NCBI GenBank assembly: GCA_026162565.1
Contig: JAOEIQ010000002.1
Coordinates: 124,001 to 188,000, forward strand
Direction: 5' to 3'
Length of the DNA stretch: 64,000 bases
Origin: Flavobacteriaceae bacterium NBU2973
GTDB lineage: Bacteria; Bacteroidota; Bacteroidia; Flavobacteriales; Flavobacteriaceae
The notes under the pieces were generated by a model. It ran no database searches, had not been told where the DNA came from, and saw nothing but the letters and a program-made list of their open reading frames with translations. Positions 49,460 to 53,630 of this stretch are shown piece after piece. A program made the position numbers and the translations under genes. Numbering within the stretch: position 1 is the first letter of the stretch; the number at the start of each line of letters is the position of its first letter.

Positions 49460-50011
49460 TTATTGAACTACTACATTGTTAAAAGTAACAGAAATATCTG
49501 TTTCACCACCTGCATTAGTAATATCGCCTTCACTAACACCTGCAGCATCTTTAGCTGGTTCGTGACGTAAGGTAATTGTCACACTACCAGTGGTTGCAGA
49601 ACCAGTAGCTACAGTAAAAGCTAAACCAACTGGGTTACCATCCCCATCAGAATCAGCGTAAGCAAATGTGCCTATGTTAGATGAAAAGAAAAATTGGTGC
49701 TCATCATCCTCTTCTTCTATTTCTTCCGTTATAGATTCAGCTGGTGACTCTGTTTCATTTAATAAATCTAAAGTACCATTGTATGTGGTATTAGCTGTAA
49801 GATTTCCTGAAACATCAGATGTTATAGTTCCATTTAAATCTCTGAAGGTCATAGTAATTTGAGTTCCGCCACCTTGAGGTGTTAATCTAGCTATTAAAGT
49901 CGTTATAACTTCTTCTTCATTTACTGGAGTAGGACTATCATCATCATTAGAACATGAAGAAAAAGTAATCATTGATAAAATTAGTATGGATAAAAATTTA
50001 ATTGTTTTCAT
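49460..50011 (-). CDS. Acidic lipoprotein paired with a TonB-dependent receptor
   Basis: This 183-aa protein has a lipoprotein signal (MKTIKFLSILILSMITFSSC). The mature part begins with an Asp-rich linker (SNDDDSPTP), then a beta-sandwich-like domain with TLIARLTPQGGGTQITMTFRD, an acidic loop ITEEIEEEDDEHQFFFSS, YADSDGDGNPVGL (Ca-binding-like) and SVTITLRHEPAKDAAG. I recall this family directly beside TonB receptors in Flavobacteriia under the name type 1 periplasmic binding fold protein. The gene starts 12 bases after the receptor stop. It likely acts as the receptor's surface or periplasmic partner. Confidence 0.82.
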   Translation of the reverse strand: MKTIKFLSILILSMITFSSCSNDDDSPTPVNEEEVITTLIARLTPQGGGTQITMTFRDLNGTITSDVSGNLTANTTYNGTLDLLNETESPAESITEEIEEEDDEHQFFFSSNIGTFAYADSDGDGNPVGLAFTVATGSATTGSVTITLRHEPAKDAAGVSEGDITNAGGETDISVTFNNVVVQ

Positions 50012-50023
50012 TGTTTAATTGTT

Positions 50024-52417
50024 TTAAAAATTTAGTTTTAATTGTAATTGTATATTTCTTCCTAAATCATCAGCGAAATATCGTAACCTGTTTAAATAAT
50101 TACGATAGGAAGTATTAAATATATTTTCTATTTGTAAGCCAATTGTAAATACGTTTTGATTTTTAAAATCAAAATCTAACGAACTTCTAAAATGCATTAA
50201 GTGGTAACCTGGAGGAGGAGTACTAACATCTACTAACACAAATTCGTTTCTAGAAGGAATAAACACTTCAAAATTATTATCTGGAAATTCGTTTTGTCTA
50301 AATACTGCTTGACTAATTAAATTAAGATTAAGATTATTCCATTCTGGCTTATTAAACGAGAGCTTGGTTTCGGTTTCAAATGGAGGCATATCTATTAGTG
50401 CTCTACTATTTGATACATCATTTCCTTTTATAAATGAGGATTTATTACTCAAAACCCAGTTACTAGAAATTTTATATTCTCCAGTAAAATCTATTCCAAA
50501 TAATGTAGCATTTGTTTGTTTATATCCCCAAATAGGGAAGTAGCCTCTTATAGTCTGTTCCGAGCCAGTTGGCTCTATGTATATAAAATCATTAATAAGG
50601 TTCAGATACGATTCTAAAAGCAATGAAAATTGCTTATTCTTATAATTATAAGTTGTAGAAAATCGATTCGAGGTTTCTTGATCTATTCGTAAATCACCGA
50701 GTTCTATTCTAGCTGCCGAATGATGTAATCCATCACTAAACAATTCTGCTGGATTAGGAGCTCTATTAGATAAACTATAATTTACATTTATGGTATTATT
50801 CTCATTAATATTAACAAATAACCCTAGAGATCCCGAAAGATTATGATAATCAAATTTTGGATTGGTTAATAATTCTGTTCCAAAATCTTCTAGTATTATA
50901 TTTGAAAAATCTTGGTTATAACCTAATTCATTCCAACGATTTGACTCATAAAATTTTTTTGCGTCATATCTATTAAAATCATAACGAAGACCAGCATTTA
51001 ATAATGTTTTATTAGTTAATCTTAAGGTAGAAATAATAAAGGTTCCAAAATCGTATCTATCATAATCTGGGATGAGTCTTCTAACACCAGTTTCAGGACT
51101 TGCGAAATTATTTTGATAACTACCAACTAAACCAATATTAAAAACGCGCTTAATATTATTGTCTATTTTAATATTTGCTTTTAATGAATGTGTAGTTAAT
51201 TTTAGATCCACAGCAGGAATCTCATCTCTATTACCACGCCTTAAATCAAATTCAAATCGACGATTATTTTGAAAGTCATATTGCACATTAAGTTTCCCTA
51301 ATGATTGTAAACGTTTGTAAAAAGTTACTTTAGCTAAATGATGCTTAATCTCTTGCTTTGGATTGTTTATATCGTATGAAAAATCATCTATTGTTAATGG
51401 AATATCACTAGAAATAGCTCTTTCGAAATCCTCAACATTTCCTAAATGCGAAGCTCTTAAAATTCCAATTTCATTATCAATATAACTATAAAATATATTG
51501 AATCCTTTTTCAAAAGTTTTATAACCAGAATTAATGGAAAAAGATTTAGAGTTTAAACCAGTATTAGTTAAATTATAGTCTGGTGCCTCAAAATCTCCAA
51601 AGCGTTTAATACTGGCTTGAGCTGAAGCATACCAGCCTTTTTCATAGGTTTTAGTTACCGAACTACTGGTTGAATAACCACGACCATTTGTTTGCCCATT
51701 TAAAAGGACTTTACCATAGATAGAATCTTTTAAAACTACTTTTGTTGGGTTAATTATTACAGTTCCTCCAATGGCATCTCCTCCAAACTCTAATGCGTCT
51801 GCACCTTTAATAACTGAAATGCTTCCTGCTGAATTAATATCTATATTTGGTGCATGTTCAATTCCCCATTCTTGATCTTGAAGTCGTACACCATTATTCA
51901 TTATAATTATTCTACTACTATGTAAACCATTAATTACTGGTTTTACAATTGCGTTACCAGTATTAATGGAAGACACTCCACTAACTTCTTTTAAAGCATC
52001 ACCTATGTTACCACTACTATACTGTTCAATTTTGTTAGTTGTTATAAGTGTCTCTTGACTAGTAAGAGTGTTTTTTACTGTCTCTCCTTTTACAGTTACT
52101 TCATTTAATTCTTCAATGTGATGTTCCATTAGGACTTCTATAACTGTATCATCATTAACAGAAGAAGTAAACGTTTTAGTTTCACAGTTTAAGTGAGAAA
52201 CAGTTATAGTATATTCCCCTTTACATAAATCTGTAAAAGTAAATACTCCATTAGAGTTACTTGTAGTATGTTTATTTATTTGCTCTATATAAATAGTTGC
52301 ATCTTGAATGTTGGTGCCGTCATGAAAATCCTTGACAGTTCCAGTTACTGTTAATGTGCAATCTTGCGCACTAATACAACTAAATATTAAGCAGAATAGT
52401 AAGCTTAAATATTTCAT
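50024..52417 (-). CDS. TonB-dependent receptor
   Basis: This 797-aa protein has a signal peptide (MKYLSLLFCLIFSCISA). A carboxypeptidase-regulatory-like domain (about 22-95: TVTGTVKDFHDGTNIQDATI) is followed by a plug (about 105-230). The plug has SSGNIGDALKEVSGVSSINTG, NGLHSSRIIIMNNGVRLQDQ and ISVIKGADALEFGGDAIGG. A barrel ends in RNIQLQLKLNF. The sequence WGIEHAPNID in the plug and the His/Cys-rich protein upstream suggest a metal or metallophore substrate, by inference. Outer membrane; energised by TonB. Confidence 0.92.
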   Translation of the reverse strand: MKYLSLLFCLIFSCISAQDCTLTVTGTVKDFHDGTNIQDATIYIEQINKHTTSNSNGVFTFTDLCKGEYTITVSHLNCETKTFTSSVNDDTVIEVLMEHHIEELNEVTVKGETVKNTLTSQETLITTNKIEQYSSGNIGDALKEVSGVSSINTGNAIVKPVINGLHSSRIIIMNNGVRLQDQEWGIEHAPNIDINSAGSISVIKGADALEFGGDAIGGTVIINPTKVVLKDSIYGKVLLNGQTNGRGYSTSSSVTKTYEKGWYASAQASIKRFGDFEAPDYNLTNTGLNSKSFSINSGYKTFEKGFNIFYSYIDNEIGILRASHLGNVEDFERAISSDIPLTIDDFSYDINNPKQEIKHHLAKVTFYKRLQSLGKLNVQYDFQNNRRFEFDLRRGNRDEIPAVDLKLTTHSLKANIKIDNNIKRVFNIGLVGSYQNNFASPETGVRRLIPDYDRYDFGTFIISTLRLTNKTLLNAGLRYDFNRYDAKKFYESNRWNELGYNQDFSNIILEDFGTELLTNPKFDYHNLSGSLGLFVNINENNTINVNYSLSNRAPNPAELFSDGLHHSAARIELGDLRIDQETSNRFSTTYNYKNKQFSLLLESYLNLINDFIYIEPTGSEQTIRGYFPIWGYKQTNATLFGIDFTGEYKISSNWVLSNKSSFIKGNDVSNSRALIDMPPFETETKLSFNKPEWNNLNLNLISQAVFRQNEFPDNNFEVFIPSRNEFVLVDVSTPPPGYHLMHFRSSLDFDFKNQNVFTIGLQIENIFNTSYRNYLNRLRYFADDLGRNIQLQLKLNF

Positions 52418-52444
52418 TAAAAAGTTTTAGTAGAAAATATAATT

Positions 52445-52789
52445 TTATATGTATTGTACTAAAACTTGAGGCGGACCACGAAGAGAAAAATTTAGTGGCT
52501 GATGACTATTTAGAAAATTATAATAAGAAAAGTTTTGTTCTATATCTATGTTAACAAACTCTGATATATCATGATTAAATGTAATGAAGTATTGGTTTGT
52601 TTTATTAAACTTATAAAACTCACAATCTAAATCTAATTCATGAAAATGGTCAATAGAATTTGTTTTACATACCTCATGTTTATGATTTTCAAAAGCATGA
52701 TTAAGTTTTATAGCAGATGGAAGAAGTAAACTTGCAACTAGTGTTAAGGTAAAAACCTTGAAACTAATATGTTGTTTGTAATTATTCAA
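52445..52789 (-). CDS. Small exported His/Cys-containing protein upstream of the TonB receptor
   Basis: The start is TTG 52789, overlapping the stop codon of the DUF6787 gene (8 bases shared); no ATG is available in this frame nearby. The 114-aa product has one hydrophobic segment (about 10-27, FKVFTLTLVASLLLPSAI). A cluster of potential metal ligands follows: HAFENHKHEVCK and DHFHELDLDCEFYKF. No family recognised with certainty. It lies 27 bases before the TonB receptor and probably works with it, perhaps as a metal-binding accessory. Confidence 0.75.
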   Translation of the reverse strand: MNNYKQHISFKVFTLTLVASLLLPSAIKLNHAFENHKHEVCKTNSIDHFHELDLDCEFYKFNKTNQYFITFNHDISEFVNIDIEQNFSYYNFLNSHQPLNFSLRGPPQVLVQYI

Positions 52790-53105
52790 CGTCTTTTAAA
52801 AATCTTTTAAATCCTATTCTGCTTAACATTTTTTTTACAAAATTCCAGAAAAAGGAATATTGACCAAAAATCCATCCAAAGAAAACCAATAAAAATTGAT
52901 AAACAATAAAAACTAACAGAATTTTAAGAACATAATAAAAGACAATTTCAATATTTCCATTAAAATTCTCTTTTACAATACCTAGATAGGTCAATATTGG
53001 TTTTGTAACCAGCATAGAAGAGGAGCCAGTTATACCAAAAACAATAAATATAATTAGAACTTGCCAATTTGAGGAAATTCCCCAACGTTGTTTTAATTTT
53101 TCCAT
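52782..53105 (-). CDS. DUF6787 family membrane protein
   Basis: This 107-aa protein starts MEKLKQRWGISSNWQVLII. It has two transmembrane regions (about 15-38 and 58-85) and ends with FGQYSFFWNFVKKMLSRIGF, the signature I associate with DUF6787. Function unknown. It overlaps the next gene and follows DUF6146 by 23 bases, in a five-gene minus-strand cluster with a TonB receptor. Confidence 0.82.
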   Translation of the reverse strand: MEKLKQRWGISSNWQVLIIFIVFGITGSSSMLVTKPILTYLGIVKENFNGNIEIVFYYVLKILLVFIVYQFLLVFFGWIFGQYSFFWNFVKKMLSRIGFKRFLKDVE

Positions 53106-53128
53106 AGCTTCAATCTATGGCAAAGATA

Positions 53129-53563
53129 TTAAATTCTTGGAGTGAAACCTGTTAATCGTTGTTTATATTGTAACTGAAAGTAAATAAAATAGTTGTAAAG
53201 TTTATAGTTAACTTCATAACCATAATCAATATTTGGGTTGTAGTCTATTCTCATTTGATACAGGTTTGGATCGTATTTATAAGGATCTAAAACCCGTTGA
53301 TTCCACGAGACCACATATAAGTGATTTCTATTCTCCATAAATTGTTGAGAATAATAGCCTTCAGGTCTAGCAGTACTATCTAACCAAGCATTAAAGCCTG
53401 GTTCAATAATTATTATTTGATAATTTGATTCTTCATTACCAATTCTAACAGTATCATTAGCTACTTCCTTTACTACTTCATTATCAGTATTTGAGATTTT
53501 GTCTGTTGTTTTACAACTAAAGATTCCAATGCAGATAATCAGGATTACAATTAAATTTTTCAT
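53129..53563 (-). CDS. DUF6146 family lipoprotein
   Basis: Start placed at ATG 53563 (MKNLIVILIICIGIFSC); an ATG two codons earlier is equally usable. The 144-aa lipoprotein has an Asn/Val-rich linker. The DUF6146 core follows: IIIEPGFNAWLDSTARPEGYY, FMENRNHLYVVSWNQRV and YEVNYKLYNYFIYFQLQYKQR. Function unknown. First gene of the receptor cluster on the minus strand. Confidence 0.85.
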   Translation of the reverse strand: MKNLIVILIICIGIFSCKTTDKISNTDNEVVKEVANDTVRIGNEESNYQIIIIEPGFNAWLDSTARPEGYYSQQFMENRNHLYVVSWNQRVLDPYKYDPNLYQMRIDYNPNIDYGYEVNYKLYNYFIYFQLQYKQRLTGFTPRI

Positions 53564-53630
53564 AACCAACCTTTTACTTAAAGATACAAAATCTATTCCA
53601 AAAAAAGTTCTTATTAAAATAGCTTTAACA

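Follow-up and report, generated by a model that had tools for sequence, protein, structure and literature searches.

A candidate zinc-sensing arrest-peptide leader of a TonB-dependent receptor and its lipoprotein partner in Flavobacteriaceae

Known arrest leaders and the flavobacterial locus

The closest described relatives of the locus discussed here are small exported open reading frames (ORFs) that precede metal-related genes and act through translation arrest. The locus lies in a 64,000-nt stretch of Flavobacteriaceae bacterium NBU2973 (GCA_026162565.1, contig JAOEIQ010000002.1, positions 124,001-188,000; the whole stretch is referred to as the window) and comprises a 114-amino-acid His/Cys protein, hereafter HC, a TonB-dependent receptor and a lipoprotein. 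According to the available excerpts of the respective papers, CruR (BP2923, DUF2946) of Bordetella pertussis is a small exported ORF leading the TonB receptor gene bfrG/crtA; it carries a CXXC motif at residues 90-93 and a RAPP motif at residues 139-142, three residues from its end; expression of the receptor depends on the arrest motif, and its control by copper on the cysteines (PMC9426467). In Rhodobacter, the nascent exported protein CutF senses copper and works through a stem-loop that conceals the following start (PMC9973294), and neither CruR nor CutF was detected as a stable protein (PMC9426467, PMC9973294). Excerpts of a genome survey of RAPP/RGPP leaders report that RGPP and RAPP show arrest activity in several settings and are strongly avoided in proteomes, RGPP being the most avoided tetrapeptide in many phyla, and that both motifs are found at the C-termini of small exported leaders preceding TonB receptors in Gram-negatives generally (PMC12992588). 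The same excerpts list the survey's copper-related gene class without leaders in Bacteroidota and do not describe the Bacteroidota device presented below (PMC12992588). Within the portions of the literature examined, metal-sensing arrest leaders are characterised for copper in proteobacteria only, and no published zinc-sensing arrest leader was found in the open-access literature of one library, which is a weak negative.

Read from its sequence, the flavobacterial locus would be a self-regulated outer-membrane zinc-uptake unit made of HC, the receptor and the lipoprotein, with HC as a cis-acting sensor, a reading to which we assign a probability of about two in three. Its features are:

52445-52789, minus strand: gene for HC (114-amino-acid His/Cys protein), TTG start, candidate exported arrest-peptide leader
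52622-52699, minus strand: codons H31 to C56 of HC, predicted metal site (H31, H36, H38, C41, H48, H50, C56), from conservation in 80 aligned sequences
52469-52480, minus strand: codons R104-G-P-P of HC, candidate ribosome-arrest motif, R104, P106 and P107 being invariant in 80/80 sequences
52422-52467, minus strand: anti-start hairpin with a perfect 11-bp stem, 5' arm 52457-52467 AAGTTTTAGTA, 3' arm 52422-52432 TACTAAAACTT
50024-52417, minus strand: type-A TonB-dependent receptor, ZnuD-like by closest solved structure and residue conservation
49460-50011, minus strand: acidic surface-type lipoprotein, partner of type-A receptors, from invariant columns and obligate adjacency; model with a predicted local distance difference test score (pLDDT) of 90.8

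HC shares with CruR the short exported ORF placed immediately before the gene of a metal TonB receptor, and a Cys-containing metal motif approximately 46-49 residues before a RAPP or RGPP that itself lies about three residues from the C-terminus. The two differ in the motif, which is mostly HxHxxC..HxHx5C in HC but CXXC in CruR, and HC has no match to Pfam DUF2946 (PF11162). Moreover, the gap to the receptor is 162 nt with Rho termination for CruR, but short (median 41.5 nt over 142 same-strand HC-receptor pairs) and equipped with an anti-start hairpin for HC, the predicted metal is zinc, and the receptor is followed by a lipoprotein rather than by PepSY_TM. The resemblance to CutF, the leader of the multicopper oxidase CutO in Rhodobacter capsulatus, lies in the proline-rich end, the start-hiding stem-loop and, on the proposed reading, sensing by the exported nascent chain; however, CutF turns a detoxification gene ON with copper, whereas HC precedes an uptake receptor and is expected to be ON at metal scarcity.

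The arrest motif and the predicted metal site of HC

HC was detected in 94 of 120 sampled Flavobacteriaceae genomes, and the gene order is conserved across the 80 loci that were read from HC-bearing genomes of the family, so that the clustering seen in the window goes beyond chance; HC is recognised by BLAST in 79 of these 80 loci, with the receptor downstream. Among 80 aligned sequences C41, H50 and C56 are each present in all 80, H48 in 79, H31 in 78, H36 in 74 and H38 in 72, and P24 is also invariant or nearly so. The pattern HxHxxC..HxHx4-6C occurs in 109 of 143 HC homologues and an R[GA]PP end in 142 of them, and a hydrophobic N-terminal 17-mer (mean Kyte-Doolittle value of at least 1.6) in 142/143, the export segment being judged by hydropathy only. 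The 142 HC-receptor pairs carry RGPP (106), RAPP (35) or RPPP (1), followed by exactly three residues in 103 cases. The spacing between the two elements is just as regular: the metal-site Cys precedes the motif Arg by 48-49 residues in 122 of 140 sequences (48 from C56 to R104 in the window), and the stretch from Cys56 to the tail varies freely in sequence while its length is fixed. Ten sites in the window genome match the degenerate RGPP/RAPP codon pattern, HC among them; apart from HC, the motif was found in one small ORF, an anonymous frame of 70 amino acids, which leaves HC as the sole plausible gene. No Pfam family was matched by HC at E<=1, and its profile found no match in the PDB at E<=10.

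The preliminary description of this DNA had pointed to ligand-rich segments in HC, and HKHEVC and HFHELDLDC are indeed both present. It had read them as signs of an accessory metal binder; the RGPP or RAPP end in 141 of the 142 pairs points to an arrest leader instead, and HC is probably the metal-sensing part of such a leader rather than a carrier. Three features had gone unnoticed: the terminal RGPP of HC, the 11-bp hairpin between these codons and the receptor start, and the fact that, of the five genes, those of HC, receptor and lipoprotein alone stay together.

A hairpin placed by the arrest codons

In the window, AAGTTTTAGTA starts one base past the RGPP codons and TACTAAAACTT ends 4 nt before the receptor ATG; this short junction has a minimum free energy of -9.9 kcal/mol (z -3.5). 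Junction folding was assessed for 135 of the 142 pairs, gaps outside 5-90 nt being excluded, and as some genomes occur in both locus sets these represent 128 unique junctions. The mean z of the HC-receptor junctions is -2.03 (n=135), with 76% below -1, compared with +0.11 for receptor-lipoprotein junctions (n=96) and -0.31 for junctions between the upstream genes DUF6146 and DUF6787 (n=78), and stems of at least 9 bp are found in 56% of them versus 10% of shuffles. Stems formed by a locus's own arms average 8.86 bp but shorten to 6.71 bp on cross-locus re-pairing (200 re-pairings, sd 0.13, max 7.10), and the hairpin arms therefore co-vary. The median distance from the RxPP codons to the 5' arm is 3 nt; in proteins with a longer tail behind RxPP the arm keeps to the motif instead of following the stop codon. 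Folding is similar before both receptor types that follow HC (z -2.35 for type A, n=86; z -2.22 for type B, n=49) and weaker outside the family (z -1.58, n=24, 15 of them below -1).

The receptor and its likely metal

Pfam recognises a TonB plug, a barrel and a carboxypeptidase-regulatory-like N-terminal domain (CarbopepD_reg_2) in the window receptor. Its closest solved structure by sequence is ZnuD (E 3e-11), followed by OprC (E 6e-9); ZnuD is also first in the receptor profile search and occupies ranks 1-4 in Foldseek, and VIA-align gives Z 39.3 for ZnuD (583 residues, 2.2 Å), 37.2 for OprC and 34.6 for haem receptors. The zinc ligands of ZnuD are Asp99, His100, Glu340 and His499, according to the excerpts available (PMC4557270). 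D99, H100 and H499 align with E187, H188 and H565 of the window receptor (printed alignments, with a consistent offset of 14), so that three of the four zinc ligands of Neisseria ZnuD (4RDR) find a partner in this protein. Unlike ZnuD, it has the extra N-terminal domain and a lipoprotein partner, and no His/Asp-rich loops. Type-A receptors across the phylum have H188 in 52/53, E389 in 53/53 and H565 in 53/53, with Glu or Asp at position 187 in 52/53, and all four candidate ligands (E187, H188, E389, H565) are conserved in type B as well. The mature type-A barrel has no conserved Met or Cys, only His, Glu and Asp, and long His/Asp/Glu runs occur in 39 of 53 type-B receptors versus none of 29 of type A. 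The NCBIfam models for ZnuD (NF038289, 84 bits, cut-off 950) and OprC (TIGR01778, 80.6 bits, cut-off 472) both score below their cut-offs. On this evidence zinc is the likeliest metal of the receptor, and since the same leader serves types A and B, both probably import one metal. Transition-metal uptake, as the preliminary description had proposed, is thus well supported, with zinc as the best candidate; HC is more likely the sensing part of an arrest leader than the accessory protein that it had been taken for.

The N-terminal part of the receptor has features of its own. Cys20, Cys65, His75, Cys78 and a His-His pair (99, 100) immediately ahead of the TonB box are each conserved in 29/29 type-A receptors of the family; they lie in the periplasmic N-terminal domain, are less conserved phylum-wide, and may represent a second metal site.

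The lipoprotein partner

The lipoprotein combines an acidic segment with the invariant residues His105 and His150, and the acidic, Ca-loop-like character ascribed to it earlier is borne out by an acidic run and the sequence DSDGDGNP. In Bacteroidota, acidic residues right after the lipid Cys are a signal for surface export, and pairs such as BtuB-BtuG combine a TonB receptor with a lipoprotein bearing an acidic, export-type N-terminus. At least two acidic residues are present at +2 to +7 after the lipid Cys in 30 of 31 lipoproteins of this kind and in none of 63 DUF6146 lipoproteins, which predicts a location on the cell surface. No sequence relation was seen between BtuG and the window lipoprotein.

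Its role as the partner of the receptor, suggested before, is upheld by the comparison of loci. In the HC slot of the 80 family loci the lipoprotein adjoins type A in 28/28 cases and type B in 0/52. In the named loci found with the lipoprotein profile it lies beside a type-A receptor in 80/80. Across the phylum the lipoprotein is present in 87 of 395 sampled genomes, a count that includes 12 Flavobacteriaceae. In the loci from other families and classes, with none from Flavobacteriaceae among them, a receptor is adjacent in 53/60; one of the seven without an adjacent receptor, L271, sits at a contig end. As separate observations, L258 (5650-6981) and L259 (5631-6816) show the lipoprotein without an adjacent receptor, as a tandem pair or followed by a Fur-family gene.

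The fold of the protein appears to be a small beta-sandwich, without a PDB match at E<=0.001; its best VIA Z (8.5) is to a generic Ig-like domain, and its profile has two PDB matches, the better at E 0.042, both within the N-terminal 50 positions. No Pfam family scored above cut-off. Comparison with CrdA- and P19-like copper proteins gave insignificant scores only, and a link to Riean_0653 was rejected as distant and below cut-off (E 0.0014; 6 of 24 members at E<=0.01).

The genes that belong together

Two receptor types fill the slot behind HC: type A of about 800 amino acids, to which the window receptor belongs, and type B of about 730-790 amino acids, the two being 23-29% identical. Mapped on a tree of the three neighbouring genes for 58 loci (16 with A, 42 with B), the receptor type switches no fewer than 13 times, and well-supported branches force at least 9 of these switches; shuffled labels give about the same total. 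The leader has thus been retained while the receptor was exchanged. Outside the family, small His/Cys proteins ending in R[GA]PP lie upstream of the receptor-lipoprotein pair in 27 of 53 loci (600-nt zone). Of 1126 comparable ORFs from the remaining parts of these loci 4 qualify, three of which look like HC proteins just beyond the 600-nt zone. Weak DUF2946 matches below cut-off were obtained for five of seven such HC-like proteins tested.

Three loci depart from the usual layout. In L090 (5644-12586) the order is permuted to HC-lipoprotein-receptor, and a second, distant TonB receptor follows; this second receptor is counted in the tally of 53 type-B receptors used for the His runs and left out of the 52 in which ligand conservation was assessed. 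L105 (5483-6723) has a tandem pair of HC-type leaders before a type-B receptor, beside a TerC-like gene, and in L109 (215-9151) HC and a type-B receptor lie immediately downstream of a resistance-nodulation-division (RND) efflux operon.

The window locus had been described as a cluster of five genes, and all five ORFs are present on the minus strand in the place and order given, with intergenic distances of 23, -8, 27 and 12 nt in order, in line with the gaps of 12-27 bases or overlaps reported; the start of HC overlaps the DUF6787 gene by 8 nt. The two upstream genes are:

53129-53569, minus strand: DUF6146 lipoprotein gene (Pfam PF19643), TTG start; an in-frame ATG at 53563 marks the end given in the preliminary description
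52782-53105, minus strand: DUF6787 membrane protein gene (Pfam PF20584)

As a single five-gene system the cluster does not stand, as DUF6146 and DUF6787 are both absent from 15 of the 80 family loci with HC and a receptor. Because these 15 loci have HC and receptor without either gene, the two are syntenic neighbours, probably co-transcribed with the unit from upstream; they were rejected as functional parts, since HC-receptor(-lipoprotein) occurs without either, and the functional unit is HC, the TonB receptor and the lipoprotein. Before the DUF6146 operon a direct repeat with 21-bp spacing, TnACTCA-N14-TnACTCATT, is found in about ten genomes (L031, L035, L036, L040, L044, L050, L051, L054, L059, L065), and it recurs approximately 87 nt before vWA, carboxypeptidase-regulatory-domain and other genes (loci L113-L142). 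It looks like a small conserved regulon, and none was seen upstream of the window DUF6146; the spacing resembles that of LytTR sites.

A link to Zur-like regulation

Ten loci that begin with the lipoprotein gene were examined, from Flammeovirgaceae, Saprospiraceae, a metagenome-assembled genome labelled Chryseobacterium and other relatives; L259 among them has no receptor and L182 is cut off by the contig. Eight of these loci have an adjacent Fur-family gene; in L203 and in the truncated L182 none was seen. The closest solved structure of the one Fur-family protein tested is E. coli Zur, and the best NCBIfam model is Zur for two of three such proteins and PerR for the third, all below cut-off. 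A palindrome near TGCAACAnTGTTGCA lies at or upstream of the lipoprotein start in nine of the ten loci and is absent in L260. In genome scans TGCAACAnTGTTGCA was found in 7/8 genomes and not in the window genome, the reversed control giving almost no matches; its other targets include MerC genes (in three genomes directly and in a fourth within a cluster) and the gene of an AztD-like zinc metallochaperone (E 2e-18, below cut-off). No R[GA]PP leader was seen in the ten lipoprotein-first loci, and arrest leader and Fur-family repressor therefore look like alternatives for the same receptor-lipoprotein pair. A motif search of 41 Flavobacteriaceae regions upstream of stand-alone HC genes yielded no convincing Zur/Fur palindrome.

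MerC genes also occur directly upstream of the HC-like leader, the receptor or both in L267 (2547-3241), L300 (2321-3021), L274, L280 and L292, the assignment resting on Pfam for L267 and L280. A second metal cluster of the window genome (L112, G000:C22 near 10991) codes for a TonB receptor and a Fur-family regulator, together with a protein that by eye resembles mercuric transport proteins and carries a heavy-metal-binding domain.

Proposed mechanism and alternative explanations

From the motif, its spacing and the hairpin we infer the following course. At low zinc the nascent exported HC would stall the ribosome at R104-G-P-P, and the parked ribosome would cover the 5' arm of the hairpin and free the receptor start, so that receptor and lipoprotein can be made. 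When zinc is present, it may bind the HxHxxC/HxHx5C segment as this emerges from the ribosome or the translocon; metal-induced folding or pulling would then relieve the stall, as copper does for CruR, and HC would be completed and discarded. Upon relief the hairpin would re-form and receptor translation would drop. The lipoprotein, probably at the cell surface, may capture zinc for the receptor, which has no metal-binding loops, a role played by His/Asp/Glu-rich loops in ZnuD-like receptors. A broader proposal is that in Flavobacteriaceae the stall-opened hairpin of a zinc-sensing arrest peptide takes the place of the Zur-like repressor that other Bacteroidota use for the same receptor-lipoprotein pair, one leader serving two exchangeable receptor types; here we consider the odds to be evenly poised.

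Several observations weigh against a zinc-sensing leader, or against parts of it. About one quarter of the HC-receptor junctions lack a strong hairpin by z, and 25 of the 53 out-of-family loci have no R[GA]PP leader by the filter applied. Glu340 of ZnuD falls just outside the aligned block, with E389 as a candidate counterpart. Copper is the metal sensed by the arrest leaders so far known to precede metal receptors, and CxxC occurs in HC-like proteins of other families and in 40 of 143 HC homologues, though not in the window HC. The main rival is the same arrest-leader device with copper as its metal, in which, on the model of CruR-CrtA, HC would sense copper and the receptor would take in Cu(II) either bare or in chelated form. 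Chelated Cu(II) is the substrate of CrtA, both CruR and CutF are copper sensors in the excerpts cited above, and OprC is the second-best structure; yet ZnuD ranks first, the type-A barrel lacks a conserved Met or Cys, zinc is favoured by the association with a Fur-family gene, by the AztD-like gene among the shared targets and by the alternative receptor type B with its many His residues, and the survey excerpts place no leaders before their copper-related class in Bacteroidota. We consider copper rather unlikely on this balance.

Next in rank, and improbable, is a role as metal chaperone for the receptor, in which HC would persist as a stable protein of the inner membrane or periplasm, with RGPP as an interaction tail and a hairpin that merely couples translation. 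The conserved His/Cys set and the export segment would suit a chaperone, but it would hardly have a tetrapeptide that is highly avoided in proteomes, as the available text has it (PMC12992588), at a constant distance from its end, nor a segment between Cys56 and the tail that is variable in sequence and fixed in length, nor a hairpin whose position is set by the RxPP codons. Uptake of haem or some other source of iron by the receptor, with HC and lipoprotein handling iron or haem, is less probable still. Among the NCBIfam models the haemin model TIGR01785 scores highest (136 bits, below its cut-off of 317), the plug and loop-6 histidines of the receptor are common to haem receptors (PMC4557270, excerpts), and the lipoprotein is distantly similar to the family of Riean_0653, mutants of which lose haemolysis in Riemerella. 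However, the same motifs once led to ZnuD itself being mistaken for a haem receptor, as the excerpts of that study state (PMC4557270), no haem receptor reached E 1e-5 with the window protein, and the Riean_0653 match is weak, matches to Mfa1-family signal peptides being commoner (17/24).

Implications

With a zinc-sensing leader as the preferred reading, an orphan flavobacterial cluster gains a precise and testable mechanism, and HC moves from uptake to regulation. HC may escape proteomics, as CruR and CutF did not appear as stable proteins. The ligand set, the codon-placed hairpin, the receptor exchange and the Zur-like replacement elsewhere make both the metal and the mechanism directly testable, and, if true, the device would explain a Bacteroidota zinc receptor without a Zur box.

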